Origin: Styela clava
Taxonomy: Eukaryota; Chordata; Ascidiacea; Stolidobranchia; Styelidae
Assembly: GCF_964204865.1 (NCBI RefSeq)
Contig: NC_135262.1
Location: 14,508,001 to 14,572,000, forward strand
Reading direction: 5' to 3'
Length of the DNA: 64,000 bases
In this document: one piece after another, positions 5,901-62,500 of the stretch
Layout: the number at the start of each line of letters is the position of its first letter
Numbering within the stretch: the first letter of the stretch is position 1
Translations under genes and position numbers: made by a program
The notes under the pieces: generated by a model
Database searches by the model: none
Seen by the model: the letters and a program-made list of their open reading frames with translations, nothing else
What the model was told of the DNA's origin: nothing

Positions 5901-6324
5901 TTACCAATAGAACATGCGTTTATTAGGCTATATATGAAGATATTGCATACAGGCAGAGTGCTAGAAACGGAAACGTGTTTAATCGTTACCGATGCAATAT
6001 TATTTAAACGTATATATCGATGATTTGTCACTATTTTCGATATTTGGACAAATATGTTGGGGCTTAAATAAGGACAGTTTCAAGAGTAATCTATCTCGCA
6101 CATAAAGGTTGTTCAAAATTGAAACAATATATATATACATGGAAGAATTTACACGTATTCATCTTATCTTTATTGAAATTTATTTGAACGGGAAACTACA
6201 ATGTATGTTCATTGAATAAACAGCTGCGCTATTTACATTACAGTACTATTTGTCATAAACGGCTCAATGAGCAAAGTGAATTGTTATATTTTCTTAACTA
6301 CAATTTGTATTCCAATACTCTGAA
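2956..6324. other. Intergenic: type-B downstream flank then type-A upstream flank
   Basis: No gene is supported. Positions 2956-4340 match the flanks after the SDR copies at 8599 (9373-10706) and 17478 (18132-19195). Positions 4340-4940 have no counterpart elsewhere in the window. From about 4960 to 6324 the sequence matches 16090-17477, the flank before SDR copy 5. The stretch 4915-4980 (tandem GTGCGCCTTAT-like words) looks like a remnant of a DNA-transposon end. Short open frames here are not conserved between the copies. Confidence 0.6.
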
Positions 6325-24741: not shown

Positions 24742-24805
24742 CTGTGTTAAAAGTTAGAAAACAGTGAGTTTGCCCAAGTCAAGAAGCTCACGATAAAAGT
24801 GGGCG

Positions 24806-35538: not shown

Positions 35539-38500
35539 ATGTTCGTTGATAAATTCCTGATGTTATCTATGAGTATTTTATTGTGTGGATGTGAAGAAAG
35601 AGATGTCAATCACAGTGAGTAACGATCATATTGGACGTTTGTTCATGGAAATTTAAAATGATGCGGTTAGAATAGGATTTGCATATTCAACCCCGGAGAG
35701 AGGAAAGTCGATAAGACGGTCGAAGCTTAATCATATGGCGAACCACGGCCTGTCGTATGGTTACCATTCCATGTCGGTTATGGGATTATGGGACCACCCT
35801 ACGGCGGCGAGGAGTCCAGCAACCCTCTTGTACATAACTATCTTCGCATGGGCTTCGAACCTGCGAACCCACGCAGGGTGATCAGACAGAGGTGCGGTGG
35901 CGAGCGTATTACTAACGCTTAGCATGGGATTTGAACCTGCGAAACCACGCAGGGTGATCAGACAGGGGTGCGGTGGCGAGCATATTACTAACGCTTAGCA
36001 TGATGTGCCACACAGCCGAGCCGGTACATGTTTCTGTGTTTTGTCAATCTTTTTTTTTCTTAATGGTTCCAAATTAACGCAACACTAATGTATACCAATA
36101 TACATGATCTCGTATTGCTGGAATACTTTCAACAAATTAAATATTGTTTATTTTCCTTATCTATATTAGCGTACTAATCGGAAAAACTTTAACCGTCAGG
36201 TCTGAGGCCTACTCGTATGTCTAGCGCGCAAGTAATGTGCGGTGTGAGATGTCAGTAACCTATCTTATACCTCAGGGCAATATTTTGTAAATGTGAGTTT
36301 AATGACAAGATTTTTTCAAATAAAAAACTAGATCATACGCCAATGATATCCTCAAAAGAGACAAATTGGGGGTTAGGGATGCGCTGGTTTTCCAACTGGG
36401 CCCCTGTCAAGCTAATGATAAACGAAGAATAAGCACAATAACCGTAAGCACAATTCCGAATGTTGAAAATCGCAATATCTCATCATCACAAACATTAATT
36501 TAAAAGCATTTTAAATGTTTCATCGGTAGGATTGAATTAAAATTGTGACAAGAAGAATATTTAATTAAGTGAGATATGTTTCAATCATATATATTATGGC
36601 GACTCCCCTCGCTTGTTTTTCAGCCACTTCGTATATTGTCTATTTTGCAATGACATCTTGATCACTTATTGTAGTTTTATGGAAACGTAACGGAATGCTG
36701 AGTTATTTGGATTCACCACTCTCCAATTTCGAAGAAAGATATTTTGCTTGCTCATCTTCTGGTCATGCTTTGGATAAACACCATTGAGATTTATATTATT
36801 GCACAAGCCAAACCACCAGCCCCCTCGCTGTATTTGTACGCAGGTGTCAGTTCGTTTAGGATCAGTGTTATGGTCGTGCGTACTGAACGGCGAGTATAAA
36901 CTGTATCGCATGTGATTTCCCAATCCAGTGGTTCCCAAATACCTACCTAAATTGCTAATTCTGAAATCAAACTCTTCTGTCAGTATATTAAAAGAATCGT
37001 GTTCCATAAAACTTCTTCTGCCCTCCCTGTCTTCAATATCTATTCGAAGTTTGAGGTTTGTAATACCTTGTTGCCCAATTGCCTTCTGTTGGACTATATT
37101 GTGTAGATTTCGAAGACCAACCCAATGTTCTTCATTTGGAAATCCGAAGCCTTGCAGATAGTCGCTCCATCCTCGGTCGAAATTGACTTCTCCATTTACT
37201 CTCTTCTGTATAGTCATCCATCCTGTCTTACCAGAAAATGCTCCAATTGTTTCCATGTCACAGTAAATGGGTATGGAGTAGAGGCCGTGAAATATGTGTA
37301 TCATGTAGACTCCGCTCTGGGTATTTCCTTTTGCGTAAACTTCTTCACAATCTGTAAAACAAAAGTGAGAATATATGCCACAAATTAGGCCTGGTTAATC
37401 GGTTAACCAATTTTAAACGGTTAACGGTTACGATTCATTTTGACCGTCAACTGACATCTCAGGTACAAATCACTTTTATACTGTATAATTTCTACAAAAA
37501 TGATTAGTTCATCGCAAATTCATCTCACGTGGCGTTCAATTCAAGAGAATATCACTAACTGTATAGGTTAGCACCAAAACTGTAGTAAATATTTGAAGTA
37601 TGATAATAAAGTCAAATTCTTTTTTAATACGTCGTGATTTGTATTAATGAAAGTAATTGGGTCGCGAGTTAAAAAAAAAGGAATTCGATTTTTCAAAAGT
37701 ACGCCGCAAATCCCTTGTAGTTGAGCGATCATGAAACTATCTCGATCTGTGAATACTTTTGAGCGATGCCAGGATAAGATCACGCGAAATTGCTTTGAAA
37801 GCATTGGGACGTAGCAAGCTTAAAAATTATACCTATTTACGTCAAAAGTCACGCTGCGGTTAATCGGTTAATATAGCCCGTTTAACGGTTAAAGTGTTTT
37901 CTCTGAAATTCCCAGCCCTAAATATTTCATATAATATCGGTCAGTACAAACGGTACCTCATTTATTTTACATCAGTTTTCTATTTCATCTCTAATGAAGC
38001 TTGTGATATCGGAATTTGCAGTATATAAGGTTAAGGATATTTTCCAAATTGACACGGAATACCAAATTTCGACCCCCTACTCCGGGGAGTTTGAAAATAC
38101 GCCTCCGATTCCAGTGAAATCATATACTGAACTACGGACCACAGACCTGACACTGTGTCGAGGTTTTCATGACTTCTTCTCCCATATCGCGAGTCGAGAG
38201 AGTTTTGAACACAGAAAATTGAGTTCACGTTTTCCCCAGGGCAGACACCATAACCAACGGCCAGTCATAACACTAAGTTTGAAATTTTTGATAATAAATC
38301 ACATCATCTATAGAAAATTATTTATTTCTTGGCATTCAAGCAAGTATTTGACCTTGCCCTGATTGTTTACTCTATTTAAAGCAAATGTTGAGATCTATTT
38401 GTTTTATAACGTTTTCGGAGTTTCCTTTCGAAGGTATAATATAAACTGGACGCGGATTCGAAATGCTTCAATAATATACCAACTATTCGATAATTACACT

Positions 38501-41500
38501 TTATAAAATATTTTGACATTGCCACATTTTTCTTTTCATTTATAGTGCCTATTGATTAAGTTAACTTACGACTGATATATTGAAAGCCATTAAACCCCTA
38601 TTTTTTAGAAATTATTTATACTGGTATCTATAAACTCACCATGAAATATGTTTAGTTTCAGTTGAGGGAGTGGCATTGATATGTTGCAGTTCCTCTGATT
38701 TGTTACATGTTGACTCCCTGTCTTTTTTAATTCAATATAACGCTGCAGGACCATTTTCAACTGGTCTTTTAGAATCTTAATAGGCGAATCCAATGAGTAG
38801 TTGCATTTTGTAAAACGTGGTTGTAGCCAGAATACTCCAATCAGCAATTGTACCGTTAATATGGAAAGACGAACCATTTTCTACGAAATAATTATGTACT
38901 CTTTTAATTCAGAAATCAACATTTCATCGGGGAAAGGACATATTCACTCTCCCAATTACCCTGGATGCTCTAGTGAAAAATCAATATCATGGATATTTAA
39001 CGCAACGATTGATCACCCCATTGTGGTAGAATTCATGGATTTTGATATATCTTCGTAAGCATAACATATTTACCTAAACCTTCTCTAGGTAACAGTATGA
39101 CAAATATATTTAAAAACACAGGAAATATCCCCCTTCCTTAACTGAGCTACCGGCTCAAATTGAATTAATACGGCTAGCGGGTGTTGCACATTTTTGCCAC
39201 AGTTTACTGAAGTGTCACTTTTCGTAAATTGTACTGGATCCTCCTACCAGGTAAAATATTTGCAAAAAAACGTGGAAAAGCGTGTACATTTTATAATTCA
39301 TTGTATGGTATAATGATGACAAAGGTTTGTCTTTTTGAAAAACCTACACCCACCACTGGTGAAACTGGTGATTTTCAGAAGTTTGTCGAAATTTACTGGA
39401 ATTTTTTTTAATATCGATTGCCTACAGCAATTGTCCAATGTTCAAGAGAAGAATGAGTATGACAGTGTTTGCCATTATAGTTATAGTCCGACAGTGATAT
39501 AGTGAATTCGACCGGCCTATAGGAGTAAAGCAAGTTAATTACTCAATACAGATGCACTAAAGCTCGTTTAACTGTAGAAGCTCGTGGAAAGCGAAAAACC
39601 GAGTTTTGCGAAAAAACAATGCCTTCAATTCTACATTCGACGACTGAGATTTCTTTGAACTATGATAGCAAAAAAAGTGATTGTGGACGTGGCATCGCAT
39701 TCACGTATATCTTTCCCAGTAAGTTATCCCTATTACTTTATTCTCTATTACCGAACATGTATATCATATCAAATTTATCTCTTGACTAACCCAAGGCTAT
39801 CTATCACAAAAAATACTATGCAGATTTATGGGTTGCATGAAATTGAAGCTCTTTTTCTTAGCCTTCATTGTGTATTTTGTTGAACATATCTATGCATTTA
39901 TCGAAATGATTTTCAGGAATTTTGGTAGAAATCAAAAGTGTTGGTGTGGTTGGTGAAGGTGTTCCAATCAGGATTGACATTCCAGATCTACCTGATGAAA
40001 TTTCAAATGAATGTCAGATTAGTTTTGGTACAGAATCAAAATATTTTCAAATGTTCCAATCTGGACATAGTTTCAATTGGACTTTCAATACTGCGGGCGA
40101 AATGCGAAGTACAATTGAATGCAGCCTGATTGTAACATCTGACGGAAGCGATGTGGGAATGATCAATAAAGACGTGTATATTGCGATTCAAGATAATTTA
40201 ACCTACATAGATTTCCGCCGAGTTTTTGACCAACTGAGTCAATCTCTTTCTTTTCAATTTGGGCAAAAGATAAACGTCACTTTAACACTGCCATTTACTT
40301 ATCCTTTCACATACCGCTTAATATTCGTTAGCATTCAACAGTCGACCAGCGACGGAAAAATTAACTACACTAACGATATGATGATTTTTCGAACGAACCT
40401 CACCTTATTTTTACTTGTCTCAAGTCGTGTTCAAATCACTCTAGGACCAGGTGCACATATAGCTATCCTTCTACTCGAGAACGATGTTACAACAGCAAAC
40501 CATACTTTTAATATATTACTTTGTGAAAAACTAAAAAACTTAAACATCGAACCAATCCGATACATTGACCTTGAACCAGCGCCATTTTCTATTACAATTC
40601 AAATAGCTGAAGGGAGTCCTGCATTCATTGGAGCTAATATAAGAAATAAACAAGATAACAGAAATGTAGCGACCACGAACGCATTTTGCAGCAATCCTCA
40701 AGAATGTAAGGAAGTTGTTTTAGAAATGTCGGTTCCGTTCGAAGGGGTGTTTGATATTTTCGTAAAAGCGAATAACAGTTTGGGGGAAGTGACGTCAAAG
40801 GTTGGACCTGTTGAAAGTTTTCCTCTGGTACACAGAGTATATGTGACGTCAACACTCCCGATTTTCACCACAAATGATGCTATGGTATTTGTGTTTTATG
40901 AACTTACTAGCAGTGGCACATTTGAAATACAAGTTTCAGTAAATGACAACGTAATCGCAAAAAAGGAAGTGTCGTACCATATTACTCTCAAAATGATCGA
41001 GAGCGAATTGCCGAAATTAAGAATTCCATTCGATCCCGCTAAATATAAAGTATACAACACATCATATCTTTTTACCAAGCCTGGACCATACAATATAACT
41101 GCCAAAGTAACAACTGAAAACCATAAACAAAGTTTGAGCGATGAAGTATCAGTTATTGTAATGAGCGCAGTCGCGACTGTGTGCTTGACGAAAGTAAAGA
41201 TTCAAGATGGTAGTGCTGGATCATTTATGAGATCAAGTTTGCAAGCGAAATCCCCGATTATATTGAGCACTGATGTTCACATCGAGTGTGAAATTCCTGG
41301 TAAAGATGAGATAAGATATAAGTGGAAGATATATAAAGTGAGTTTATTCGTGGTTATAGTATATTGACTTTTTTGGAAGCAATATATTAGCATCTGCTGA
41401 TCTAGTACGGCTTATGTCAGTATGTGAAATAAAATATTAGTTATTATTTAATTATTAATAAAATATTATGTTCATTGCAACTTGCCTATCCGAACGTATT

Positions 41501-44500
41501 TCTCTTTAGTTAGTTTCTTATACGTTTATATCTGTTGCAACAATTCAAATGCAGTTGGGAATTAATCAAGAAAGGTTTGACATTAACAGCAATACTGAAT
41601 GTTTTATGAAACTTTTTATGAATCGCTTCGATCTCAACCTTAAATTGTATTAAATAGGAAATCATAATGTATGCCTGCTCAGAAGTTTTGTCCACTTTTT
41701 TTAAACCTGAGTGCAATGTCTTGCAGCCTTTCCTGTATTTTTGTTATAGGTCGATACCATGACAACAAAACCAGAAAATGAAATCCACTACAAACAATTA
41801 GTGACAGAGACAAATGAAATTCATATCAAACCATGGATGATTGATCCTGGTCTTTATATTATTCAAGTTATTGTTACTCAAGTTGGCAACAGTGGAATTC
41901 TTATTCAACAAGTTGAAGATTTTACATCAATTAAAATACCAAGAATGGAATTAAATGCACAAATATGTGGGGGAACACTAAGAGAAATAGGTATGGAAAC
42001 ATTGATTTTTTTTGTAATGCTATTTGTCACTGAATGAATTCTACTAAGATTTGAATCATATTCCTAACAATGAAGTCAGCATGTTATGTGGAATTTTTTT
42101 TTACACGGACTAAACATATTTTGTGCTTCATTCCGTATTCTATTGATAATCAATCTTATTTCATATTTTCTAGGTCACAACACATCTCAAATATCATTTG
42201 ATGGATCTTGCTCATTGAATCCACATATTCAAGATCAACAATATGACTGGTTTTGTTCTTTGAATATTGAAGATTTACCTGTTGATAAACATATTGGAAT
42301 GTTTCAACATAAGGGATCATGTTTTGGTTGGAATCCATCATTTGTAGGAAATCAATCAAAAGTTGAAATTAATGTTGATGAAACTAAAATAAAAGATAAA
42401 TTTTACATCAGATTATTTGTTAGTTTATCTGGTTATGAAGATGTTTTTACTGATCAAGAAGTTTTCATTCTATCACATCCTGCTCCAAGTTTAAATATTT
42501 TGTGAGTATTGTTGATATATATGATTTATAGCTGTGAGTTTTTTTATTTCATTTTTCTACCTAAATATCTTATTACAGATGTTGGGTAAATTGTGGAAAA
42601 TCATTAAAACCTCAAGAACCTTTCATTCTACAAATTCAATGTGATTCATGTGTGAGCTACGAATGGAAAACAATATTTGGAAAGTTGAGTGATTGTGATT
42701 CAAGAGAGTTTTGTAAAATTGAATCTGCTGTATTGGAAAAAATCAATTCAACAAAAGATATTTACATCACTGCTACAGGTTTGTAGTTGAACCAAGGTTT
42801 CATATCACTCTGAGGAACTATCCTGTCTATATTTCTATCAACAATTTTTTTTCTACTAGCTATCTTTAATTCTCTGTTTAGTTGTTTTTATTGTTTATGA
42901 GATAAAGCAGACTAAATCTCTAATGTTCAAATACTGTATGCCAAACATTTTCAAAAATAATTAGGCTATGAATTAATACTTTGGTATAATATTATAATTT
43001 TTTTGCATATTACCAACATTTACTTTTACAGGTGTGGATGATATTGACCAAAATGCTTCCATCACTATCAAAACTTACATTATTCAACCTCCATCTGCAA
43101 TGCAATGTTCATATCAACCTGAATCTGGTTTTGGATTCATCACAAGATTCAATTTAACTTGCATAACTTATGAAAGACTCATATTCAAGTTTTCATTGAT
43201 TGATGAAGGTTGGTTTTCAAATAACATTTAAAAGATAGTTCCCATAACCTTTTTATCTAATGTCACCCTGCTATGTTGCTCATAAATATATATGTATAGT
43301 TTTTATGTACCGGTAATAGGAATTTCAATTGTTCGAAAGAATATGATGCCAATAATTTGTTTTATTCCACATTTCTATTTTATGATGTCATGAGTCTTTG
43401 ACAAATATGTGGTGGTTGCTGTTCAGTCCACACCCTTAGAAGATCAATCACACCTTATCTTCTATCACCCTTAGAAGATCAATCACAAACATTTTGTGAT
43501 AAAATATCAGTGATATGTTGTATTACATGTTCTTTTCTTAAAATGCAAATGCAATTTCAGATTTATTAGGTTAATGCATCACAACATCCACACACTTTGG
43601 ATCTTTTCTCGTTTTAGCAATCTCGAGAGAAAAAAAAAGTAGAGTCAAATTTTTATTCATTGTTTTTATGGATCAAAGTATTTTACAGATTCCAAATCTC
43701 TTCTACAATATGGTTATGAAACTGAAGTCACAGATTTAATTCTTCCACCTGGTTACATCCAAATACAGGCAGAAACATGTAATTCTGCTGGTTCGTGTTC
43801 ACACAATATATTTCCAATACAAGTACAAGAAAGTAAAGATCCAGCAATAACTGAGAATTGGCAACAAGAACTTGAGAATGCAATAAAATCCAAAAATTCA
43901 CAAAAAGTAGCTCAATATGCTTCATCGTTGTCGAAAAATCCTGATTTTTCTATGAACTTGGTAAGTTGGATTAAGAGCACATGGAAATAGTGCCTATGTA
44001 ATAGATTTCAGTCTCTGAATTATGTGAAATGTTTAGGCCAGTGGGGTCCAAACCCAGGCCCGCGGGCCACATGTGGCCCGATGCTTCATTATCTGTGGTC
44101 CGCGTCACATTCGGAGAGTAATCGATAAATCGCATTTCGTGTTGTTTCGTAATCAAATTTATCAGAAAAATCTTTTGACATATTGTTTCATCACTAATGT
44201 CACTGAATTGACTAGTGTTATGGCTGGCTGAGGCAAATAGCGAAGTTGAATGATGTGCTTGGCAGTCTAAATTATTATCTGGCTTTCTATCTTTTTTGTC
44301 GGAAATATATGCTAACAATAAAGGCATCATAGAAAACTAAAAATCAAATGTGGATTCTATTACCCTGAGATAACTATGCCTGATAACTATGTGTTTGCAC
44401 AATAGAAGTGTTTATTTTGTATTGCACTGTTTACCTATTATTGGCACTATTGTGGCCCACGAACAATGAAAAAATAAATTTGTGGCCCGCGGAGCCGACA

Positions 44501-47500
44501 ACCTTGGACCACCCTGGTTCAGGCATATTCAATTCTTTGCATATGTTCACTTTATCGATGAAGAGTTTTAGTAAGGATATGAGGATAAAAAATTTAACTC
44601 AATGTCCTTTTTGATGAATCATATTATTTATGTTTTAGAGAAACAAAATGTTGAACTTTGCATTGGATTCCATACTTATATCAACTGAATCAGTGAAGCA
44701 AACTTCCGATGTTCTGCAAGTTGCAACAGAGGATTATTTCAAGAGCTTGGATAAAACTATTCAGGTAAATCTAAACAAAGTCTTATTGATGAAATACTAC
44801 TAGTGTAGCCTTGTACTGTACTACAAATTTTCAAAGGCAGTATACATAATATTTGCACGGCTTATCATTTAACTTTAACAACTACTCGAAATATTTTAGT
44901 TTTATTTTTAATTTATTTTTTATTTGAATTTTGTAATGCTTTCAGTGTTGATATAGTTTTTCTATTTTCATATTTTTTTTAGGGAAACCTCATAAACAAA
45001 CTATCTGATGTATCTACCTGGATACATAATGATATTGATTCATCAATCGATTCTATTTCATCAGTCGTTAGAAAATCATTAATTGTTTCATCAAATATTA
45101 TGGAAGGAATGAGTGAAACTCAGGTGAGATCCAAGAGATCCAAAAAGTTATTCATTGGAATATCAAATTTTGTTGTGGTAATCATTTTTTCGCTTTAAAC
45201 GAGTTCCCGACTCCCTCATTATCCCATTTACCGGTAATATAAATTGTATTTAGTTTTCTTTATTGAGAGATAATCGAAACATGGCTCTATTTCTATATTC
45301 CAGGTTACTACAACATCCAACCATCGAACTCTCACAACAATAGTTGATGATTTAAGTCGTGAAATGCTTGAAGCAATTCTACCTGGAGATGAAATAATGA
45401 AAATTAAAACAAGATCTGTGGATACTAGTATTAAGCGATATAAGCATAGTGAAAGTGAGTTCTTCATTTTTTACTTTAATTTTTTTTTTTGGTATTTTCG
45501 CAGAAAATATATAGTTTAGCAATTTTCACATTACTGTAATGTATTATATATATATTTTTATATCAACTGTGCATTTCAAAATAATATGTCTATTTTAATA
45601 CAATAGATTTGACCTTGACTGATGATGAAGTACAAATCAAAGTCGAAGATTCGATGGGGACACAAGATGATGATACCGAATTCTTAAATTTACAGGTAAG
45701 AAGATAATGTTTAAAATTTAGATGGTTGTCTATAATGGCTTATGATAGATAATCAATTTAGTCTCATTCAATTCATTTGTTAGGTTTTCAGATTCAACTC
45801 TTCAAACACAAAATTTAACACAAAATCAAACAAAGCAGATGAAGTAGTTGGAATAACTTTGTCGAAATCTCACAAAATTCCAGGAAAAATAAAATCAGAA
45901 ACAAAAACATTTTCCTTGTCAAAACCAATAAAATATGGTTTGTTGAATCATCAACCTGAACCTGAATATTTTAATTTAAAATTAAACGAAACGAAACCAG
46001 GTTTATGGAGCGGATTTTTACCAATTGTTGTGGAAGGATCTCATGAAAATGTTGCTTTAAAAATAAGAATAATTACAAATGATATTTTGGAAATGGAAAA
46101 AGTGAAGTTGACCTTACAAGAAAGTAACATCCTGGAAATGGATCGGTTCAAACTTAATGAAATTGTCAATGGAACAGGTATAAATAAACAAATTTTTTTT
46201 TTCAAGTTTTGTCTACTTCAAATGTTAAAAGTTTCTTTGCCTGTGCAAGTACAAGAAATTTTTCTGAAGTAACACTTTTAAATGATTAGTGGCAATTGAC
46301 CCTTTTGAAAATCAGGTTAAGGCATTCAAGGCAAAAGTATTTGTAATTCTTCAAATTTTCTTTACATTGTGAAGATTAATACTATTATATATTTATTGTA
46401 TATTGTTGAGTATTTTTGCTTTACAGAATTTGCGTCTGAAGGTGGATTTACTTGGACGATACCTATCCTGAAAGGTCACTCAATTTTTAATTTAACAGTA
46501 GAGACTCAATCTATTCATGCAGTGACTTTGAAAATATTGACATATGCCACCAAGTGTTCATTCTGGGATGACATGATTAATGATTGGAATAGTGATGGTT
46601 GTAAGGTTTGTTATTAAAGACAATTTTGTACATTAGTTATAAATTTACATTAGTTATAAATTTACATTAGTTATAAATTTACCTATTCTCAGGCCACTCT
46701 GACTTCAACACTTGACAAATGGACATGGTGTGAATGTGATCCACAAACATTTTCAAGAACAAGAAAAATTTCTTCACCAAATTTATTTTCATCAAGATTG
46801 ATTGTTTATCCAAATAAAATTGATTTCACAAAAGTAAGTTGGACTGAATCATTCTTTTTTTTTAATTATTCTCTTGAACTAGATTCACTCATTCAATGAA
46901 TCGCTTGAAGCAGGAGTAGATCCAGGAATTTTTGTTTCTACAGGTTTTTCTCTTTTTAATTTACACAAATTTGCCTGTTAATGGTATGACATCAGATGTT
47001 TATTTAGACCAAGAATGATACAGTCTTCTATGCAAACATATTCTTAGACATAAATCCATACTTAGTATATTGAAATTAATCTGTTATTCAGGTATCTTGG
47101 AATTTATGGGAGGAATTTTATGACAATCCAATCATATTTCTAACAGTATTTGGAATGTATTTAGTATTTGGATCGGCTTTGTTCTGGGCAAGATGGAAGG
47201 ATAAAAATGATATCGAATTCGTGAGTATATCATTTTACTTCTGTATTTCTGTGCCTAATCATACTCAAAAAAGTAAAATTGTACCAATTGTAGACTCTGG
47301 TTTTGGGTTATTGTTACGTATTTTCAAAGGAATCAATCTATGTGATCATATACTTGTCCCATGTCTGTTATTTCTGGTTATGTTTAAACAGCATTCTTAC
47401 ATAGAAGTGAGCGACAATCTTCCAAATGAACACTACAGATATTTACTTACAATATTTACTGGTAATCGTCGTAGATCTGGACCTTCATCTACTGTTGTTG

Positions 47501-50500
47501 TTAAAATTAATGGATCAAATAATAAAAGTGTTGTTCATATATTACAGGTAGGTAAGTGATATTTTTATGATAAAAAAAAGAGGAAATCAGTATAAAACAT
47601 TGGTAATTACCGTAGATTAAATTAATAAAGTCTATATAGAGTTTTGTTTTTCAAATTCTGCTAAACATGCTACTTTGTTCATTATTGGGGAGTTGCATGT
47701 GTGTTCATGACATTTCGGAAATTTTTGTTTGGTTCCAGTTTCCCAAGTAAAGAGAGCAATAATCATCATATTTAAATATTTGTGGTTTTGTTATCAGTGA
47801 ATATTACTATGTTTGTTCACATTCACACGGTTTTTCATTGTAACCAATAAATTGTAATACTCATTATTCTTCTAGAAATGTGAAGAAGAAAGAATTTTAT
47901 TACAAGGAAGTGTTATCACATTTCTTATTACAACACCTGGGTGTCTTGGTGATGTTACTACTGTTAGATTATGGCATGGTAATGAAGGTACAAGTCCTGA
48001 ATGGTAGGATATTTTTAATATTGACGAGTGTCTGAAAAATTATTCATTCAATTGTATAGCACTTGTACTACGGGAAAATGAAATCATGTGTGATGGAATA
48101 GATATTTAGGCCAAGTAAAACAGACTAGACATGTTCTGAATTGTATTTCATTTACATTTTCCTTTCTTATCTGGGTTTAATCAAATTAGCTATCATAATT
48201 ACCAGATACCACATATTCACATAAATAAGTTTTTCAAAACATTCCGTTTAGGTATCACACTTTTAGAAAATTAATAAACTTCTAAATTTATCGGTAAATA
48301 TGATCTTTGTGATATAGAGTTGGTTCCAATTGACACCATCGCACTACAAGCAAGACACCACCGTATTAATAGTATGTAAAACTCGGACATATACTTATGC
48401 CTTTCAGGTACATTGATCGTCTTGTTGTTCGAGATTATGAAACAAATGAATGTTGGTTTTTTCTTATAAATACCTGGTTATCAGATTATCATATGGGAGA
48501 ATGTCAGATTGATATTGAAGTTCATGCAGCCACTATCAAACATCTTCATTCATTCAAAAGTTTGTTCACAATTAAAAGTGAAAATTATTTAAAAGACAGG
48601 TTAGTGGAATGTCTTGATGCTGCATTACTATATTGAGTCAATTCATCTGGTCTTCTGTTATTTTTCAGACATCTCTGGTATTCATTATTTGCGATGCGTC
48701 CATGGTCACAACATGACATGTCTCGTACTCAACGTGTTGCTTGTTGTTCAATTCTTGTATTTATGTTAATGTTGACTTCTCTTATGTTTTATGGACTTGA
48801 AGCCTCTCTTAGTATTGATCTGGGATATTATTCATTCAAATGGTCGAATATTGCTATTGGTAAGTGGGTGATTTATATTGGCAGATGTTGATGAATACTA
48901 ACTTAGCTTTTCAGCTCTCACATCTCATCTCATTTTTAGGCTTAGAAAGCAGCATTCTATGTTTTCCTGCAACCTACATTGTATCTGTGATATTCCGACA
49001 ATCGCGACAACATCACCATAGATATAACCATAGTGATACAGTTAACTATGACAACATCACACTCACATCTACATTATCAGACTTCAATTATCAATGTAGA
49101 ATTTCATCTCGAAGGTTCAGTCGTGGGACAATGACATCATCAAGACGTCTTTTGAGACATCGAGAACTTGATAATATGGATTTGAGCGTTCCAAGATTTC
49201 GACATTTGAAATCAAAACGACATACCGGTAACAGTATGACATCACCACATAGAATAAGCTATGAGAAAATATCATCTTCGGATACTAAAACGCAACAATC
49301 ATCTAAAGTGCTAGTTGTTGATGATGCAAGAGAAATTCAACTTACAAATAGTAAAAATTTAAAACAAAAAAGGAGAAAAACAAAACAGCAAATAAAATAT
49401 GATGGAAGGGAACTGCTTTTACCTTCTGCTGGTTTTCATGGGGATGCAGATTTGCAAGAACAAAAAAGGTTAGAAAACTGGGCAAATGCATAGAAAATTC
49501 TGAGTTTAATGCTGCATTCTTTTTCAGGAGGTCTCATCATCGATCAAAAGTTGTTACAGTCATGGATATTGATCCTGATTCTGTTGATTTTAAACCAATC
49601 CCTTGGTTTTGTATTTATTTTGCCTGGATATTGATTACTATTATTATCATTGGATCTTCTGTACTTAGTGTGATGTATGGAATGACTTATGGAAGTCATA
49701 TTTCTAAGCAATGGTAAGTATGTGATACAAACATGTATAAATTGTTCTCTTGTATTCTTAGTTGAAATCATAATATCAATTCTAATTACTTGTTTTACTC
49801 AGGTTGGTATCACTTCTAAGTGGAATAATTCAGAATGTGTTTGTATTGGAACCATTCAAAGCTATATTTCTTGCATATATTATTGTTGTTAATAATCCTA
49901 GACATGATATATCAGACTGGATCCCACCTCTGAGAACTGAAAGTATGAAGTTTGTTCATTTTTTGCAATTCTTCCTTTCAATATTTGTTGCAAATAGAAT
50001 GTCTGTTACCATTTTTAATTGCTGAAACTCTATTATTATTCTAGTTCTTCCACGAAGATACAAAAATCCTCATCATATTTTACAAAAATTAATCAAAGAA
50101 CGAGAAACTGAATCAGCTTACAAATATCCTGATGTTGATAAAGTTAAAAATCAAACTATTGATAAATTAGAAGATAGAGTTTTTAAAAGGCGAATAAAGG
50201 TTGGTGAAATTTTCTTCTTAAAACTTATTTTTGTAATGTATGTATAATTTTGTATAGAGGTAGGAATTGAGGACTGATTATTGAAATCAGAAGACAATTG
50301 GAGTTTTTGAAGTTTGCTCTATTTACATTGTCAAATTTTTTTTTATTGAAATTTCAGTATATTTTCAGGACATATCAGTTCATCTCATTTATCTTGCTAT
50401 TCTGTTGATAATTGCATACGGACTTCATGATAACAAAATCATATATTTCAAGACAGCTGTTAAAAATATGTTTGATGGAAATTCAGTCTTAAGTAAAATG

Positions 50501-53500
50501 AAAGTGAAAACTCGAACTGATGTTTATGATTGGTTCAAAGGACCTTTGATTGACAGTTTGTATGGAGGCCATTCTTCTCATTTTCCTGATAAACAATTAT
50601 TAGTTATAGGACCTCCTACTCTGAGACAGCAAAGGATTAAAGAAGGTGAGTACTCACAATATATGAGTATGCAATATGCACTTGCCACAAGTGTGTGAGC
50701 AAATTTTACTAATTACAACCAAGCTTTGCAAATGTTTGGATACGAGTATGCAATGTGCTCTTGTCACAAGTATGTGAGCATATCTTACTAATAATTACAA
50801 CCAAGTTTTGCAAAAGTTTGGATTGTATGTAATGCAAACCTGCAAGTAAATTCATGTAGTGCAAATAGTCTGTATGATGCACTGTTTGTTTGAGACTGCG
50901 TTCCACTTTTCTTGGGAAGTTTGTTGCTTTTGTATGAACTCAGATTAGAAAACTTTAGTACGCAACCTTGTTCATCAAATCCAATAACAAGTTGAGACAT
51001 TTTTTAAAATGGCCATGCTTTGATTCCAATTCATTGCGATTGGCCTCAAAATTGAAACTTTCTCTGATCCAATCCTGAAGTTGTTATTTCGTTATAGTTC
51101 TTTGTACACAGCCAATCTTCTTCCCCCTTTCAACTTCCAGAAAATGGCTTGCAACAACTATATATAAAATCTTTCACTTTTTGTTATATTCATCATTTCT
51201 CATTTACCATTAACACCCCCAGGTCCATCCTGTGTCTACACATCTGTTATTCCATATTTAAAAACATCATCAACATGTAAATCAAACGTTTATGAAGAAA
51301 TTGGAAAATACTCAACTGCTTGGTTCAAATATCGTCCATATGAGACGCTGACTCGTTATGGCAGACATCACAGGTGTGCGTATTACCTTAATGTCTATCT
51401 ACATAACATCAATATATGATTGTTCAGTTGTACAATCAATGCCATATGAACATTATATCAGTTATTTTTGAGAAAGAATGTATATTTGCAAATGCTATAA
51501 AAAGATGTATCAAAGTCATATTATGTTACAGTGTGTTTTGTTTCAATACCATAATATTGCAAACTAGTTGTCATATTTAAATTTGTATCTTCTTTCAGTC
51601 CTTGGACTTATGTTGCTGGTGATCCATACTCTCTACCATTCTTAGGAGAACATGATAACTATCATCTTGGTGGATATGTTGGAAAACTCACCAAGAATAA
51701 AAATAATGCAACAAAAATGATTCAATATTTACAAGATAATAATTGGATAGATGATAAAACAAGGTAAGATTATGGGCAATTTATATAAATTGCCAGCAGG
51801 TCTAATAATATTCCTTGGAAAATCGCAAAAATACATATTAGTGAACAGTTACTAACAAGCATAAGATGAGTAAATAGCTGACATAGACAATAAATATTGA
51901 GGAATTTGTCATTTCCAAAATCATGATTTCCAATTCCTGGAGTAGACGGTTTTAACTGTCAGCAAAATGTGGAAGTTCATTACTTACATTTACTTAAAAA
52001 ACTATGAATTTCGGTTTTTCAGAATTGTCATGTTGGAAACAGTTTTATACAACACTGCAGTTCGATTATTTTGTATTGTTTTACTTGGTGTAGAAATTCC
52101 AAACACAGGTCAAGTTCATGTAACTTTACAATTAATGGTAATGAGATCTCATCATGTTGTGTAAGTTTATCTATAATATTACTTGATTATAAATTACAAA
52201 ATAATGTCAATATTTTGTCTATTTAGTGCGGATCTATAATTTTAGAGTTAAATTTTAACATTGGTATTGTAACAAAACTCGCTAATCATATTGCGAAAAA
52301 GGAACAATAAATATTAGCAATCCTTTTGGCCAATGCTTTCACTTACATGATCTAATTTAATCTGTTTCAGAACATCATTTGACGTAATTGTATTCATCAG
52401 CCTATTTGCTTTACTAGCAATGGTTTTTTATTTTATTTACAATATTGTGAGTCTTGCTAGAGAAACAGGATTTGAATATTTTGCTGATGTTTGGAATGTT
52501 CTTGAAATATTAACATTGATTACATCTGTTGGAGCTGTTATTACTTTTCTATCCAAGTGAGTATTAAACTTCAATGATTCGCTGCTTGAAGATTTGATTT
52601 CTAGACATAACCAGCAGAGTTTTATCAAACAGGGCAACATACACAGACCTAGCACTTCATGCAACTAAGACAGGAGATGATAATTTATTTCTATTCTACA
52701 CTGCATCATGTCTTGATTATGCATTAACGTGTCTACTTGGATATTGTATATTCTTTACTATGATGAGAACTGTTGCAGTAAGTTACATCTCATATATGAC
52801 AATAAGTATCAATGGTAACCTCATACAAATCTGACATAACGTCTCTCGACTTCTTTTTTAGATAATGGAAGGCCACCCTCACTTCAGATTATCAAATGCA
52901 ACAATGCAAATTATAAGATTTGATTTAGCGGGACATTTATTTTGTTTGTTTATTGGATATATGGCATTTTGTCATTCAGGTAACTATCGCAAGATTTTTA
53001 TGATATTTTTGGTTAACTTTTCATCAAATATGCAAAATCACCAAATTTATCAAAAAATAGATTGCTAGAACATTCGTTATTCATTTTTTTAAATAGCAGA
53101 CAACACTCTGATATTTTCTTCAGGTCTTATTATGTTCCATGATATGTTGGATTTCAGCAGCATCCTTAGGGCAACACAATCAGTGAGTTTTGAATTTTAT
53201 TTCCAATTATAGTGACTGAACTAAGCAACTATATTTCCAATTGTGTGCAGTTTAAAAAAAAATTGGAGTTTTGTCCATGAATATGGCCGAATCGACAAAT
53301 TTTGTATAATAAATGGTAGTGACTAAAAGATTTTACATAATACTATGTGCATATTATTCGAGAATCCTGAGTGATCGATCCCAGATTAAGTCATTGCCCC
53401 TAATCTATTTTTGTGTTGAACAGAAAATTTTCTTTTCAGATAGTTGCCTATGCAGCTGGAGCATACATGAATAATTTACTTGCAGAACATCCAATGCATG

Positions 53501-55262
53501 GTGGAATATTTCTACTCATATTTTTGCTCATTTACGTCAAGTTATTTGTTAATTTTTATGCCTGTATTTTGGAGAATGCATATCGAGAATCAAAATTATT
53601 ATTACGAGATATTAAAAAGGGAGATTTTGTTCATTTGACAAGAAAACAAATCAGGCAAGTAATTTTATTATAAGTGAGGATTATAATTTATGTTATGGAA
53701 TTCTTTGCTATAAAGCCTATGGATTCTCTTGAATAATAGCAAAATAAAGGTCTAGTTTTATATCCCAAAGTACATTCTTTGGCGCTTGTGAACCAAGGTG
53801 GCGGACCCTGAACATAGTTTTCTTTATTTTAGTTCTATTACGAGTTCGGGGACTAGCCAAGTGACTCCTGTAGTATTTGTACCTGAAATTAGGACCTAAG
53901 CCTAACCTGGTACACATACTACGGGAGTAGGCCTACCCATTCTTTACACAAACTTATTTCGTTTTTAATAAATTGATATCTTGTCGTGAAATTTGTCTTA
54001 TTTTTCCCTTGACAATATATTGAGATTTTGAAACTATAGAATATGAACTATTATTGATTTTTTGTTGAGCTACAAGAAACTGACTTGTCTAAGATTTTAT
54101 AATGTGAATACCAGTGTCAGGTCTTTCTGAATACAGCAAAAAATAGAATTTTATCCATCATTCAGTATGTACCGGTAAATAAAATTGATTTTGTTACCCC
54201 AAACAAAATTTAAATGATTTCGATTTATTTTGGTCTTTCTTGGTCTCATCATCTGAATAGGTTAACTGTGTGTATGTTATCAAATGTATTCATTGAGTCA
54301 AAAAATTCATGTTGCTGCATATCTTTTGCTCAAAGATATTTTATCACAGGAATGGCATACTTGTAGTAATCGAAGATAAGTTTTAAATGAGGTGTTGCTT
54401 CTATATCTGAGCTGGTTTTTAACCTTATTCACCAATTGACTCAAAAGGAAGCAATAAATATAGCCGATACTAGCCTCAGCTTTGCAAAGTATAGTTAGTT
54501 ATTAGTGAAATTTAGTTCCACTTAGCAGGCTATACTGTACTTAGTTTTTGGCCATAAAATAGACAAGTTTTTATGCTGATTTTTAACAAAATTTCTATGC
54601 TACAATTTTTTTTTTAATAGCTTCCATTTTGTGGAATTGAATTTCTAGCTATTTTTCTGACAGTGTTAGCTAGAATTTTTTCTACTATTCAGACATCTCA
54701 TCGCAGGGCTAAGCTCATAATTGAACAGGGAGTGGACCTATAGTGTGTTTTGTTATTGTTGATTGTCATATCAGCTTTTTTTCTTTTCCTGTTTTGAAAA
54801 AATCACGTTTCTCATTTACTAGCCTACTGGACCAATTGCTTTGAAAATTTCAGTGGTCAAAGATTGTATCTTAGCTAGAAGGGTATTACTTTTATTTTAT
54901 TAGATTTCTGGGGCCTGCATGGGATTTGTTTTTTGTGTGCGATGATGTCATAAAAATTGTGCTCCCTGTGGCGGTCGCGCTTTCGCTTACTAATAAGTGC
55001 AAATCTGCAGCTCAGCTGCAATACCAGTAGACTACGATGACAGATTGAATACCCGTACCACTTCGTGTCCATATGTTTGAGTACCGTTCTCTTGTTTTCT
55101 AGATCTTTGTTTGCAATTGAAGCAAGAAAGAGACTTAAAGAAGAAGCAAAAGAAAAGTTAGAGAATGAAAAATTGAGAGAAAAAATTCTGAGGGAAATGA
55201 ATGAAATTGAAAAGGAGAGAAAGAGTAGAACAAAACTTGAAAAAAAAAACATAGATGCATAA
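35539..55262 (+). CDS. Polycystin-1-like receptor, s-Themis-like
   Basis: I assemble 36 phase-consistent exons, about 2555 residues: leader 35539-35614; CUB 38913-39054, 39428-39456, 39578-39718; Ig/PKD-like 39917-41337; REJ region 41750-43960 (5 exons); GAIN 44639-46605; GPS 46693-46833; TM1 47092-47220; PLAT 47392-48599; remaining membrane part 48669-53654; last 55103-55262. Marks include CSFWDDMINDW...GC (GPS), HLWYSLFAMRPWS...TRTQR-type polycystin linker, WIDDKTR in the extracellular TOP domain, eleven hydrophobic segments and a Lys/Glu-rich coiled coil at the C terminus. Family knowledge: polycystin-1/REJ receptors are surface receptors, and Ciona s-Themis proteins on sperm recognise egg-coat v-Themis. 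The fibrinogen-like gene inside intron 1 on the other strand matches that locus. The GPS lacks the usual HL-T cleavage triplet. The leader and the 29-base exon are the weakest joins. AATAAA at 55317. Confidence 0.8.
35690..36024 (-). repeat. tRNA-derived SINE with internal tandem duplication
   Basis: A near full-length SINE in reverse orientation. A 76-base block containing the B box and the GGTGCGGTGGCGAGC stretch is repeated head to tail (35846-35921 and 35922-35997) with a few differences. It lies in intron 1 of the receptor gene. Confidence 0.75.
36666..38877 (-). CDS. Secreted fibrinogen-related protein, v-Themis-like
   Basis: Two minus-strand exons: exon 1 38877-38640 (ATG at 38877, donor GTGAGT) and exon 2 37351-36666 (after TTTTACAG); the phase-1 join makes an aspartate, giving DCEEVYAKG, the standard start of a fibrinogen-related domain. 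The 307-residue product has a signal peptide (about residues 1-24), an amphipathic helix that could form a coiled coil (about 32-53), possible glycosylation at NYS 26 and NIS 65, and a C-terminal fibrinogen domain (80-307) with VNFDRGW, NLGRYLGTTGLGN and RGGWWFGLCNNINLNG. The usual calcium loop DxDND is changed to DHNTD. The gene lies wholly inside intron 1 of the receptor, and its ATG is 36 bases from receptor exon 2. In Ciona the ligand v-Themis sits on the vitelline coat in exactly this arrangement. Otherwise it would be called ficolin-like. Confidence 0.85.
37387..37920. repeat. Repeat with TAGGCCTGG/CCAGCCCTA ends in the ligand-gene intron
   Basis: Both ends carry CGGTTAA-type words in opposite orientation (GGTTAATCGGTTAACC left; TTTAACGGTTAAAG right) and imperfect inverted termini TAGGCCTGG / CCCAGCCCTA. 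It is probably a hAT-like MITE of about 534 bases, filling much of the 1288-base intron. Confidence 0.5.
43431..43487. repeat. Two copies of a 22-base direct repeat in a receptor intron
   Basis: CACCCTTAGAAGATCAATCA plus two more bases occurs at 43431 and again at 43466, separated by 13 bases. It lies between the exons ending 43208 and starting 43689. Confidence 0.7.
44039..44516. mobile_element. hAT-type MITE in a receptor intron
   Basis: Termini CAGTGGGGTCCAAACC and GGTTGTCGG-like complement (ACCTTGGACCACCCTG) are inverted, with TGTGGCCCGCGG-type subterminal words. It is flanked by near-identical 8-base duplications GTTTAGGC (44031-44038) and GTTCAGGC (44517-44524). The 478-base element is non-coding. 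Confidence 0.75.
46630..46680. repeat. Three tandem 17-base units next to a splice acceptor
   Basis: ACATTAGTTATAAATTT is repeated three times without a mismatch, ending 12 bases before the acceptor of the GPS exon (46693). Confidence 0.85.
50665..50824. repeat. 79-base tandem duplication in a receptor intron
   Basis: Two diverged units starting GAGTATGCAAT (50665 and 50744) follow the exon ending 50645. Shared blocks include TTACTAAT, ACAACCAAG and TTTGGAT. Confidence 0.75.
53655..53660 (+). promoter_or_regulatory. Non-canonical GC splice donor
   Basis: The exon ending KQI + AG is followed by GCAAGT rather than GT. The inverted paralogue has the same GCAAGT at 57192-57187, so the GC-AG intron predates the duplication and is probably used. 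Confidence 0.7.
53863..53929. repeat. Hairpin in the last receptor intron
   Basis: Arms of about 21 bases (GACTCCTGTAGTATTTGTACC and GGTACACATACTACGGGAGTA) pair with few mismatches. The sister gene's last intron is much shorter (455 versus 1448 bases) and lacks it. Confidence 0.6.
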
Positions 55263-56586: not shown

Positions 56587-59500
56587 CTAAACATTTTTCA
56601 GTAATTTTGTTCCATTTTTTCTTTCTTTTTGAATTTCATTCATTTCTTTCAGTATTTTTTCTTTCAATTTTTCACTTTCCAGCTTTTCTTTTGCTTCCTC
56701 CTCAGCTCGTTTTCTTGCTTCAATCGCAAATAATGATCTAAAAAACATTCAGTGACAAATTGACTATTAATGCAAAATGGTATTTATTGATGAGTTTGTG
56801 ATTTTGGCAAGAATTAATTAATCTGCGATATAAAAGTTTCTCAAAGATAATAGTGATGGATGCCAAATCAAGCCAGTGATGTTTATGTTTTGACATTATG
56901 AACACAGGAAAGACAGATCTGTAATCTCTGAAAAATTGACCATCAGAATTCTCCATCCTCAAAATATTGATCATATAATTCAAGTTTTAAAAATTCATTT
57001 ATGTTCCAAATTCATGTAGCATTGAAAACAACATTCAATGGCTATTTTTCTATATCTGGACTGATCATAAGACGAATCTTTGATTTCCGATCTTTACACC
57101 CTTAAAATATCATCAAATATTCCTATGACTCAAATATCAAAAACAATGAAATTTGGCTCATTATAATCCTCACCAAAGAAAAGAATACTTGCCTGATTTG
57201 TTTTCTTGTCAAATGAACAAAATCTCCCTTTTTAATATCTCGTAATAATAATTTTGATTCCCGATACGCATTCTCCAAAATACAGGCATAAAAATTAACA
57301 AATAACTTAACATAAATGATCAAAAATATGAGGAGAAATATTCCACCATGCATTGGATGTTCTGCAAGTAAATTGTTCATGTATGCTCCTGCTGCATAGG
57401 CAACTATCTGAAAGTTTGGTATATTATCGAAAAATGTTTGTGCAATCTAATGTCCGTGACACAAACTTATAAAAGTGTAAAGTAAATACTATTTGAAATA
57501 CATATAGTTTTTTCATTTTCACAGAAGAATCAAAGCAAAGAGAACTTGGGTTGGGTTGGGTTCAACTTGGGAATAGTTTTATTACTGTAGTTTGTAACAT
57601 TAACATAAAAAGAAAACTTACAGATTGTGTTGCTCTCAATATGCTGCTGAAATCCAACATATCATGAAACATAATGAGACCTGAAATATATTAAACAGTG
57701 ATAAAAAATCGGGCGATAATTGTGAAGTTGGCGCATCTGAAAAAAAGCAACTGGTAAAGTATTCCCAACATGGACTGGTAACTAAGGAAAGTCTGGTTCG
57801 TCATATGATTAAGTCATCTGGTCGACTTTCCTCCCACCTGGGATAATGAAATAATCCTATTTCGAATGTCTGAAAGCAAGATACAAAATTCGCTTTTGGC
57901 CGGCTTCACCATGCTGTTGGATGAAATGATTGTTTCTCGAGTATCATCTTTAAATAGTACATCATATATACGTATAATCATACACATCATCTCAACAGGT
58001 GGTTACAAAAAACAACACCCACCTGAATGACAGAAAGCCATATATCCAATAAATAAACAAAATAAATGTCCTGCTAAATCGAATCTTATAATTTGCATTG
58101 TCGCATTTGCTAATCTGAAGTGATGGTGACCTTCCATTATCTAAAAAAAACGTTTAAAAGTCTATACGTCAGATTTGCACAGGTTAACCTTGATATTTAT
58201 TGTCATATATGAAATATAACTTACTGCAACAGTCCTCATCATAGTGAAGAATATACAATATCCAAGTAAACAAGTTAAAGTGTAATCAAGACATGATGCA
58301 GTGTAGAATAGAAATAAATTATCATTTCCTGTTTTAGTTGCATGAAGTGCTAGATCTGTGTATGTTGCTCTGTGAAATTGAACAGTTTACTAGTAAAATC
58401 ATAATACATTATACCCCATGTATGCAGGGATTCACATCTATATGCTCTCAACCACTTAGGAAAAGCTATGTTACATTACAATAACAAAACCATAAACTTA
58501 AAAATGATAAATTCAGGGAAGAGGTACTGAGTACCTGGCTCGGCAGTGAGGCGCATTGTGCTAAGCGTTAGGAATACGCTCGCCACCGCACCTCTGATTA
58601 CTCTGTGTGAATTCCCAGGTTTGAGTCCCATGCGTGGATAGTTATTTGCGAGGACTGCTTGACTCCTTGCTGACGTAGGGTGGTTCACATAACCGCTGGT
58701 CGGTTAGGGCTTCCTCCACCATCAAGTTCATGCATCTGAAAACAAATAACTAATCCCATACCTGACATGAACTGGTAACCGGATGAGAAGCCGTGGTCCG
58801 CCATAAGATTAAGCTGCCTTATTGGCTTTCCTCTCCCCTAGGTCAACATGTAAATCCTATTCTAACTTACTTTGATAAAAAAGTAATGACAGCTCCAACA
58901 GATGTGATCAATGTTAATATTTCAAGAACATTCCAAACATCACCAAAGTATTCAAATCCTGTTTCTCTAGCAAGACTCACAATATTGTAAATGAAATAAA
59001 AAACCATTGCTAGTAAAGCAAACAAACTGATGAACACAATAACGTCATATGATGTCCTGAAACAAACAAAAGCATTAGTTATGAAGATCGTTAAACTTCA
59101 TTTTTAATACAAGCAAGGCGATTATTGTGATCAATTGCAATGATACTGTCAAAACTATTGTTTCTATTATTGACCAAAAACATTCTTGTGAAGTCTAACA
59201 AAATATAATTATAGATTAACTTACACAATATGATGAGTTCTCATCACCATTAATTGTAAAGTAACATGCACTTGACCTGTGTTTGGAATTTCTACACCAA
59301 GTAAAACAATACAAAATAATCGAACTGCAGTGTTGTATAAAACTGTTTCCAGCATGACGATTCTAAAAGAAAATTTTTGAAAGTTTTTACATGCCTACCA
59401 ATGAGGAGAAGTTTCTGCATTTTCTGAATGTATATCAATCAACTACACTGGTCCGATGCCCTGTTCATGATTCTACTCATTATAAGAATGTGTGAGACCA

Positions 59501-62500
59501 AATTGATGATTATCGTAACCAGTTGACAACCTCGTAGGTGACTATTCTGTGCAAATTTATTATTGATTTTTTTGCTACCATCCCAACTTTACACAATTGC
59601 TTGCTGTAAACAAGTTCCTTCAGCAAGTAAATACACCAATCTGGGATGACTATTGACTAATGAGCTTTTTCCCTACACAGAATGGTATCCTAGCAAGAGA
59701 TCATGGTTCGCTGCATGATTCAATTCATACCCTTGACTGGCCGAGAGAGCTATTTCAGAAAATGCTGATCAGCAGTGACGTAGAGTGAGCATGAGCACCT
59801 TATTCATTTGACTTGAACCCCCCAGATGTTTATCTGTAATGGTATTCGATGTACAATGTGTATCAGAACAATCCTCAAACAATTGGTCGACTCAAGACTG
59901 CGGCAAAAATAAGACAAATCCTCATACAGGAGTGTGTGTGAGTGATTGACAATTTTGCACAATGGATGTAAGTCTGGCTTCAATGCCGAAGAGGGCTTTG
60001 TAGCATATTTTAGAGAGAACATAACTTCTAACTAAACTAAACTTCCTAGAGTTCTTAAGACATTCATGGGTTCTGTTTTATGGGGTCACCCTGTACTACT
60101 GAAAGCATTAATTCAAAGCTATGCCTAAGTTTTTCCAACATTCTCAAATGCTTATACAATGTTATGTGAATATTACAGTCTTCGGATTTAAAAAAATATA
60201 CCAACAACAACTAATTTTCTCTTAAATTAATTCCTACAAATCTCATAAAATCTTACCTAGATTTATCATCAATCCAATTATTATCTTGTAAATATTGAAT
60301 AATCTTTGTTGCATTATTTTTATTCTTAGTAAGTTTTGCAACATATCCACCTAGATGATAGTTATCATGTTCTCCTAAGAATGGTAGAGAGTATGGATCG
60401 CCAACAACATAAGTCCACGGACTGAAAGAAATTACAATAATAATATATGATAATCATAATAATATAAAACAACTGGCCTGGAATCATAACACCATTGAAA
60501 TAGAAAACGCCAGTCAATAACTTATATGTCTCTTCATAGCATTTGCAATGAAACATAATCAGGTATATTTGATTCATGATAAAAGTAATAGAATTAATTT
60601 TGATACCTTTGTTCTCTCTTGTAATGCATCACTATCTCATATGGATGATATTTAAACCAACCAGTTGAATATTTTTTATTTTCTTCATAAACAACTGATT
60701 TACATGTTGATGTTGTTTTTAAATATGGAATAACAGATGTGTAGACACAGGGTAGACCTGTAAATGAGTTGGCAAGGTTTGTGAAGGTTTCATTTTTAAA
60801 AGTAAAAAGAGTATGGAGATGAGAACATAAGGATTGAAACGCATTACACAACATTTTGATACTGCAGCCGATTAGCCATGTGCAGTATTTGCATATGTGT
60901 ACCACTTGGATCACATACAATCCATTTAGTTGGCACAACTAGTTTCTAGATTGTGAAACCTGGTAGCACACTTGTTATATAAGTGATTCATTCTTGTAAC
61001 AAATTTGTTGTAATCATTGTAGAAACCAAGTTTTTTGATGTCACATGTTAAAAATCTCTAATTAGTTAAAACACTATGCCTTCCACCAAGCAACACGCAC
61101 AACAAAATATACTGCAGGGCTCAACACTATATATCAAATGAAAGTGTGAAACACATATTAAAAAATTCCAAGTTTTCCGTTTCAATGAACCTAAACTATA
61201 ATGCTTGAACACAGAGTACCTACCCTCTGTGATCCTTTGCTGTCTCAAAGTTGGGGGTCCAATAACCAATAATTGTTTATCTGGGAAATGGGAGGTGTGA
61301 CCTCCATACAAACTGTCAATCAAAGGTCCTTTAAACCAATCATAAACATCAGTTCGAGTTTTCACTTTCATTTTACTCAAGACTGAATTTCCATCAAACA
61401 TATTTTTAACAGCTGTCTTGAAATATATGATCTTATTATCATGAAGTCCGTATGCAATTATCAACAGAATAGCAAGATATATGAGATGAACTGATATGTC
61501 CTGGAAATACATATTAATATAAAATACAGTGGATATATATATGAGAATGAGGAAATAGTTTAGTTTACAAATAAACAACTGAGAAGCGATTAATTTAATT
61601 TCAGTGATTAATTTTCAGATCTTATTGTCTATGGCCCTTGTCTGAGTGACTGCTGACGCAAACAGGCAAAAACCATTGACCATAAGTATGCTTGTGAATA
61701 CTATTTTGTAGCAAGGAAAATTACTGACCTTTATTCTTCTTTTAAAAACTCTATCTTCCAATTTATCAATAGTTTGATTTTTAACTTTATCAACATCAGG
61801 ATATTTGTAAGCTGATTCGGTTTCTCGTTCCTTGATTAATTTTTGTAGTATATGACGCGGATTTTTGTGTCTTCGAGGAAGAACTGAAAATATTCATTGC
61901 GCAAAAATATTACAAACAATCTATTTGCTATGAATATTGAAAAGAAGAATTGCAAAAAATTACAGAAACTCCATACCTTCAGTTCCCAGAGGAGGTACCC
62001 AGTCTGATATATCATGTCTTGGATTATTAACAACAATAATATAAGCAAGAAATATTGCTTTGAATGGTTCCAATACAAACACATTCTGAATTATTCCACT
62101 CAAAAGTGATACCAACCTGAATGAAGCGAAAACAAGAAATTAGCATTGCATTCATGACTTGAACTAAGAATTTACAGAGCTTCAGCTTTCAACTCATAAA
62201 CAATTCATACTTGTTTGTATCACATATTTATTACCATTGTTTAGAAATATGACTTCCATATGTCATTCCATACATCAAACTGAGCACAGAAGATCCAATG
62301 ATAATAATAGTAATTAATATCCAGGCAAAATAAATACAAAACCAAGGTAATGGTTTAAAATCAACAGAATCAGGATCAACATCCATGACAGTAACAACTT
62401 TTGATCGATGATGAGCTTTTCTGAAAAATGAATAAGGGATAAAACTCAGAGTTTTTTTTTTAAATTGCACTTACTGAAACGAGATGTTACCTCTTTTGTT

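Follow-up and report, generated by a model that had tools for sequence, protein, structure and literature searches.

In a 64,000-nucleotide window of the Styela clava genome (C17:14508001-14572000 of a 376.6-Mb assembly) we found a predicted counterpart of the Ciona s/v-Themis self-sterility locus, in which an egg-coat ligand (v-Themis) and a sperm receptor (s-Themis) act together, a self match leading to Ca2+ influx and release of the sperm (PMC7018956, PMC8849226). The locus consists of a fibrinogen-like ligand gene (ligand 1) on the minus strand and, around it on the plus strand, a polycystin-1-like receptor gene (receptor 1). Ligand 1 has two exons and encodes 307 amino acids with a signal-peptide-like start and a single fibrinogen domain (Pfam Fibrinogen_C, PF00147; E=2.1e-42, 145.9 bits), while receptor 1, running from the leader at 35539 to the stop at 55262, is of the CUB-REJ-PLAT-11-transmembrane (TM) polycystin type. 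An earlier note on this DNA had described a two-exon minus-strand fibrinogen gene (36666-38877) flanked on one side by a proposed leader exon (35539-35614) and on the other by the CUB exons of a receptor, which begin at 38913; the exon models confirmed this layout at sequence level.

The note had also assigned REJ, GPS, PLAT and polycystin channel regions to the receptor. Pfam, applied to two of the five receptors described below (receptors 1 and 3) and to one of the four ligands (ligand 1), placed REJ (PF02010; 1.3e-33), PLAT (2.3e-14), Polycystin_dom (4.8e-29) and PKD_channel (3.5e-9) of receptor 1 above the cut-off, together with CUB (4.1e-5), but left GPS below it. PLAT was missed with the first gene model and recovered after its exons were re-joined. 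A 79-bp tandem repeat (50666-50834), mostly intronic in the model, lies inside receptor 1.

With the window exons as tblastn queries against the flanking DNA and one region of C18, we found that this pair (pair 1) has three relatives (Table 1). Pair 2, also on C17, is inverted and tail to tail with pair 1, starting 1.3 kb past receptor 1 and extending outside the window; pairs 3 and 4, on C18, are likewise tail to tail. An exon 1 of like kind was present in ligands 2, 3 and 4 (the donor of ligand 3 being uncertain). In a genome search with ligand 1 (best 150 of 347 candidates scored; itself 1e-172), the other paired ligands came first (E of 1e-101, 4e-70 and 6e-65), followed by a ligand relic in the window (7e-51) and then, after a gap, by the next fibrinogen match at 4e-11. 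In a search with the receptor TM and linker exons (27 matches in all), five genes, among them receptor 1, had exon-match identities of 33-98%. Alternative copies of the ligand or receptor loci were not seen in these searches of one assembly.

All four intact ligands found of the subfamily, at four places, were antisense to a receptor, and four of the five subfamily receptors were paired. Fibrinogen domains are abundant in this genome (161 Pfam matches, with the best 150 of 718 candidates scored), which would favour the view that an ordinary ficolin-like gene lies beside a PKD1-like gene by chance; yet among the matches listed only the four paired ligands covered Fibrinogen_C from at most position 5 to at least position 217, and the consistent pairing makes such a coincidence extremely improbable. 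The earlier note would have given way had the closest homologues been ordinary ficolin and PKD1L genes lacking any pairing; this outcome is thus contradicted. Mammalian PKDREJ and PKD1-like proteins have the order REJ, GPS, PLAT and channel seen in receptor 1 (GPS being below the cut-off here), but we know of no nested ligand gene in them, and the other polycystins of this genome matched the receptor TM and linker exons at only 25-31% identity.

The distance between the ligand start codon and the CUB acceptor was 35 bp in pair 1 and 43 bp in pair 2, and in pair 2 an in-frame stop lies ~7 codons upstream of the CUB exon with no in-frame ATG between; therefore the receptor needs a leader exon from elsewhere. 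The CUB exon starts after a phase-1 acceptor in all four paired receptors. Under a strict scan (ATG, hydrophobic core and good phase-1 donor; ~9 kb upstream of the CUB acceptor per locus), one place per locus was returned, always beyond the ligand, the leader of receptor 1 being the sole candidate in 8.9 kb; a lenient scan added one further place beyond the ligand in pair 4. Under fixed thresholds, from 1.5 kb beyond the ligand stop to the CUB acceptor, a sense phase-1 candidate was present in three of the four loci (pair 1 included), each no more than 1.1 kb beyond the ligand stop, whereas control scans were empty in sense phases 0 and 2 (0/8) and on the antisense strand (0/12); the background rate was 0.49 donors per 10 kb, the sequence scanned including the loci themselves. 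Matching pair 1 against pair 2 DNA gave only short, chance-level matches for the leader, so the case for it rests on its phase, position and signal-peptide character. Judged by the empty control scans, the placement of the predicted leaders is not a matter of chance.

If ligand and receptor were instead head-to-head neighbours, the receptor would have a promoter of its own, with its start downstream of the ligand, and the 35539 leader would be spurious. Pair 2, lacking a nearby leader candidate, would fit this arrangement, and the leader-to-CUB join is a prediction from sequence alone; yet the 35- and 43-bp gaps, the missing in-frame ATG in pair 2 and a lenient scan that was empty for the free sequence separating ligand ATG from CUB acceptor in pair 3 (1.7 kb) and pair 4 (0.5 kb) render it very unlikely. 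With the ligand nested as predicted, its 5' end very probably overlaps the second exon of the receptor in pairs 1 and 2, and, as the short gaps imply such overlap, a crossover between ligand and receptor head would tend to break one of the two genes. Between the leader exon and ligand 1 lies a 76-bp tandem repeat (2.1 copies, 35842-36002), and the sequence at 35666-36027 recurs in an intron of receptor 2.

The receptors on the two chromosomes differed in their channel region. In receptor 3, the one C18 paired receptor searched with Pfam, REJ and PLAT were present without a polycystin or channel domain, and the receptor frame of pairs 3 and 4 ends shortly past TM segment 5. When the channel was searched by tblastn at relaxed settings in the 8.8 kb separating receptors 3 and 4 and the 7.4 kb behind receptor 5, the best E was 0.38, compared with 4e-59 for pair 2 as control. 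By hydropathy, pairs 3 and 4 share five TM segments (6 and 7 peaks above threshold), and pairs 1 and 2 carry six more, giving a total of 11 (17 and 18 peaks above threshold); the surplus peaks belong to the ectodomain, are confined to one model or fall in stretches taken for intron. Ciona s-Themis-A likewise has five TM segments and no channel, while s-Themis-B and -B2 combine 11 segments with a channel (PMC8849226), and the A and B genes are on different chromosomes (PMC8849226, PMC7018956). Thus, by predicted topology, the receptors here are split as in Ciona, those on C17 being of the B type and those on C18 of the A type.

Divergence between copies fell into blocks. In pair 1 versus pair 2, colinear receptor DNA similarity sets in abruptly at ~40440, inside a long exon, and upstream of this point only the fibrinogen exon aligns in order (66%), while receptor tail identity is 62-97% by exon. 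Synonymous divergence approached saturation in both the ligand and the receptor head and was lower past the head. Between the C17 copies, differences at fourfold-degenerate sites numbered 28/47 in the ligand, 21/41 in the head and 130/685 in the rest (ligand versus rest, p=4.8e-9; head versus rest, p=8e-6); between the C18 copies they numbered 33/57, 49/92 and 169/446 respectively (p=0.006 and p=0.007). Ligand and head did not differ from each other (p=0.52 on C17 and 0.61 on C18). Intron-derived codons in the models should raise the value of the rest, and the contrast is accordingly weakened. At the level of sequence comparison, this step reflects age: ligand and head make up a single old block, and the tail was homogenised or duplicated later. 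A similar division has been described in Ciona, where the DNA of Themis-B and -B2 is almost identical except for the N-terminal hypervariable region (HVR) (PMC7018956).

Table 1. Features of the locus and its relatives (window positions unless C17 or C18 is given)
Feature	Coordinates	Strand	Remarks
Ligand relic	24069-24778	-	Frame breaks; same fibrinogen subfamily; ~12 kb upstream of pair 1
Receptor 1 leader exon (predicted)	35539-35614	+	MFVDKFLMLSMSILLCGCEERDVNH; phase-1 donor ACA/GTGAGTA
Ligand 1 exon 2	36666-37351	-	Fibrinogen-related domain complete within one exon; PF00147
Ligand 1 exon 1	38640-38877	-	Signal peptide and short helical, coiled-coil-like stretch (coiled coil by eye); donor ATG/GTGAGT
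Gap between ligand 1 start codon and CUB acceptor	38878-38912		No room for receptor promoter plus leader
Divergent receptor head, putative counterpart of Ciona s-Themis HVR	38913-40440	+	Step in identity and synonymous divergence
Receptor 1 CUB exon 1	38913-39054	+	Phase-1 acceptor at 38912/38913
Receptor 1 CUB exon 2	39531-39718	+	
Receptor 1 long exon 3	39917-41337	+	End of divergent head falls within
REJ region and GPS-like region	41750-46833	+	Many small exons, some limits uncertain (model)
First TM segment and PLAT/LH2 exons	47092-48599	+	PLAT exon ~47884-48015 joined to ~48408
TM segments 2-5	48669-50203	+	Also present in C18 receptors
Polycystin domain and PKD channel, TM 6-11	50313-53658	+	Not found in C18 receptors
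Receptor 1 last exon, charged tail	55082-55262	+	Stop TAA 55260-55262
Receptor 2 3' part, inverted paralogue	56587-64000	-	Head outside window at C17:14581095
Ligand 2	C17:14581139-14582410		Outside window
Pair 3 leader candidate	C18:10501756-10501825		Second donor 9 bp earlier
Pair 3 ligand	~C18:10502456-10503871		
Pair 3 receptor	C18, from 10505612	+	
Pair 4 receptor	C18, from 10536556	-	
Pair 4 ligand	~C18:10537053-10538136		
Pair 4 leader candidate	C18:10538845-10538914		
Fifth receptor, more divergent	C18, ~10477361 on	+	Multi-exon fibrinogen gene exons on opposite strand ~4 kb upstream

The C17 locus resembles s/v-Themis-B and -B2 of Ciona (C. intestinalis type A, C. robusta) in several respects: i) a two-exon antisense fibrinogen-like gene between leader and receptor body (v-Themis-B also has a first and a second exon; PMC7018956); ii) a REJ-PLAT-11-TM channel receptor; iii) two copies per locus; and iv) greater conservation between copies in the tail than in ligand and head. 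On the other hand, the copies here are inverted and tail to tail with 3' ends 1.3 kb apart, while the Ciona pairs are ~70 kb apart, and their tails are less alike than the almost identical ones of Ciona (PMC7018956). The C18 loci share with s/v-Themis-A the 5-TM receptors without channel, the antisense fibrinogen-like gene and a chromosome other than that of the B type; unlike Ciona with its one A pair, two tail-to-tail A-type pairs are present here, plus the fifth divergent receptor with its upstream multi-exon fibrinogen gene. HrVC70/HrUrabin of Halocynthia roretzi is likewise a candidate ascidian self-sterility pair, but it joins an EGF-repeat coat protein to a CRISP-like sperm protein of unrelated families (PMC7018956, PMC8849226). 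Themis homologues are mentioned for H. roretzi and C. savignyi (PMC8849226) and for Halocynthia (PMC7018956). A literature search on Themis, ascidian, Halocynthia and Styela, from whose scope most subscription papers fell out, brought up no description of this arrangement, and within that search we met no earlier account of the doubled, inverted layout.

The proposal of the earlier note that the window holds the Themis system or a paralogue of it is therefore supported by the nesting, the two-exon ligand, the REJ/PLAT/11-TM receptor, the several pairs, the 5-TM class and the divergence blocks, and we consider it likely that the locus is a B-type, channel-bearing s/v-Themis self-sterility system outside Ciona. 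Several points weigh against this assignment: i) the Pfam CUB in the receptor head is not among the s-Themis domains named in the published excerpts; ii) GPS reached 15.6 bits in receptor 1 against a Pfam cut-off of 22.5 and was not listed for receptor 3; iii) the receptor models were built by script and include some intron-derived stretches, and for the C17 models the 11 TM segments were our choice out of 17 and 18 hydropathy peaks; iv) in pair 2 the only strict leader candidate is 5.1 kb away with a weaker donor, none being found within 1.5 kb of its ligand, and of two other places given by the lenient scan one is inside the ligand gene; v) the divergence step is much weaker on C18 than on C17, and the cut points for the fourfold counts were set after the divergence profile had been seen; vi) the ratio of nonsynonymous to synonymous divergence (dN/dS) was below 1 in every pairwise window with a finite estimate, so that no positive selection was shown.

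The last point also fits a different role for the same family, namely general sperm-egg-coat binding or species recognition by non-polymorphic proteins that do not determine self-sterility. Indeed the Ciona egg coat carries a non-polymorphic v-Themis-like fibrinogen protein (PMC8849226), and the role of Themis outside Ciona has been called unknown (PMC7018956). However, four pairs in which ligand and head share one common deep divergence look like separate recognition specificities, and we regard such a general role as unlikely. With three further pairs elsewhere in the genome, a Themis-type system is probably not confined to Ciona.

Other features of the window and genome were as follows. The ligand relic is reminiscent of the additional truncated copies near Themis-B in Ciona (PMC7018956); receptor relics sought beside it were not found. 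On C18, two facing multi-exon fibrinogen-related genes have exons at 10466435-10473154, between the fifth receptor (+) and REJ/PKD-channel matches on the minus strand (10420781-10442473); these genes and the neighbouring matches are possibly an older pairing. Upstream in the window, copies of a repeated frame lie on the plus strand (3-566, 2155-2952, 6298-7095, 8572-9369 and 17451-18128), which we take to resemble short-chain dehydrogenase (TGGGSGIG motif). Long open frames of 530 and 169 amino acids (11594-13584, +) are possibly transposon-derived. No Rfam family reached the gathering score in the window. Elsewhere, a cellulose synthase match (C9:16177457-16177855, E=2.2e-4) lies 2 kb from a GH6 match on the same strand (C9:16179895-16180164, E=1.5e-6); a CesA-GH6 fusion has, among animals, been reported only from tunicates (PMC6523144), and the two matches accordingly mark the genome as that of a tunicate. 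A search of the assembly for COX1 found none.

Returning to the Themis-type reading, a mechanism can be proposed by analogy with Ciona, from which we infer the splicing, the expression in testis and ovary, the polymorphism, the binding, the Ca2+ response and the self-sterility. The antisense two-exon gene would supply a secreted fibrinogen-like egg-coat ligand, and the surrounding gene a sperm polycystin-1-like receptor whose head (CUB plus adjoining sequence) would read that ligand. A match between ligand and receptor from one haplotype may open or gate the cation channel of the receptor, whereupon Ca2+ would enter and self sperm would let go. Because the ligand sits between the leader exon and the head of the receptor, ligand and head would be inherited as one block.

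A wider scenario, in our view evenly poised between right and wrong, would be that the A and B classes of Themis predate the split between Ciona and this tunicate, that each was doubled here as an inverted tail-to-tail repeat, and that gene conversion between the 3' arms keeps the signalling halves alike while ligand and head are sheltered as a recognition block of their own, giving four (perhaps five) self-specificities per haplotype. A tunicate genome of 377 Mb that carries both A and B types, with blocks as expected for a recognition locus, would offer a second lineage in which to test the Themis system, and the ligand and the receptor head would be precise targets for resequencing, crosses and knock-outs.
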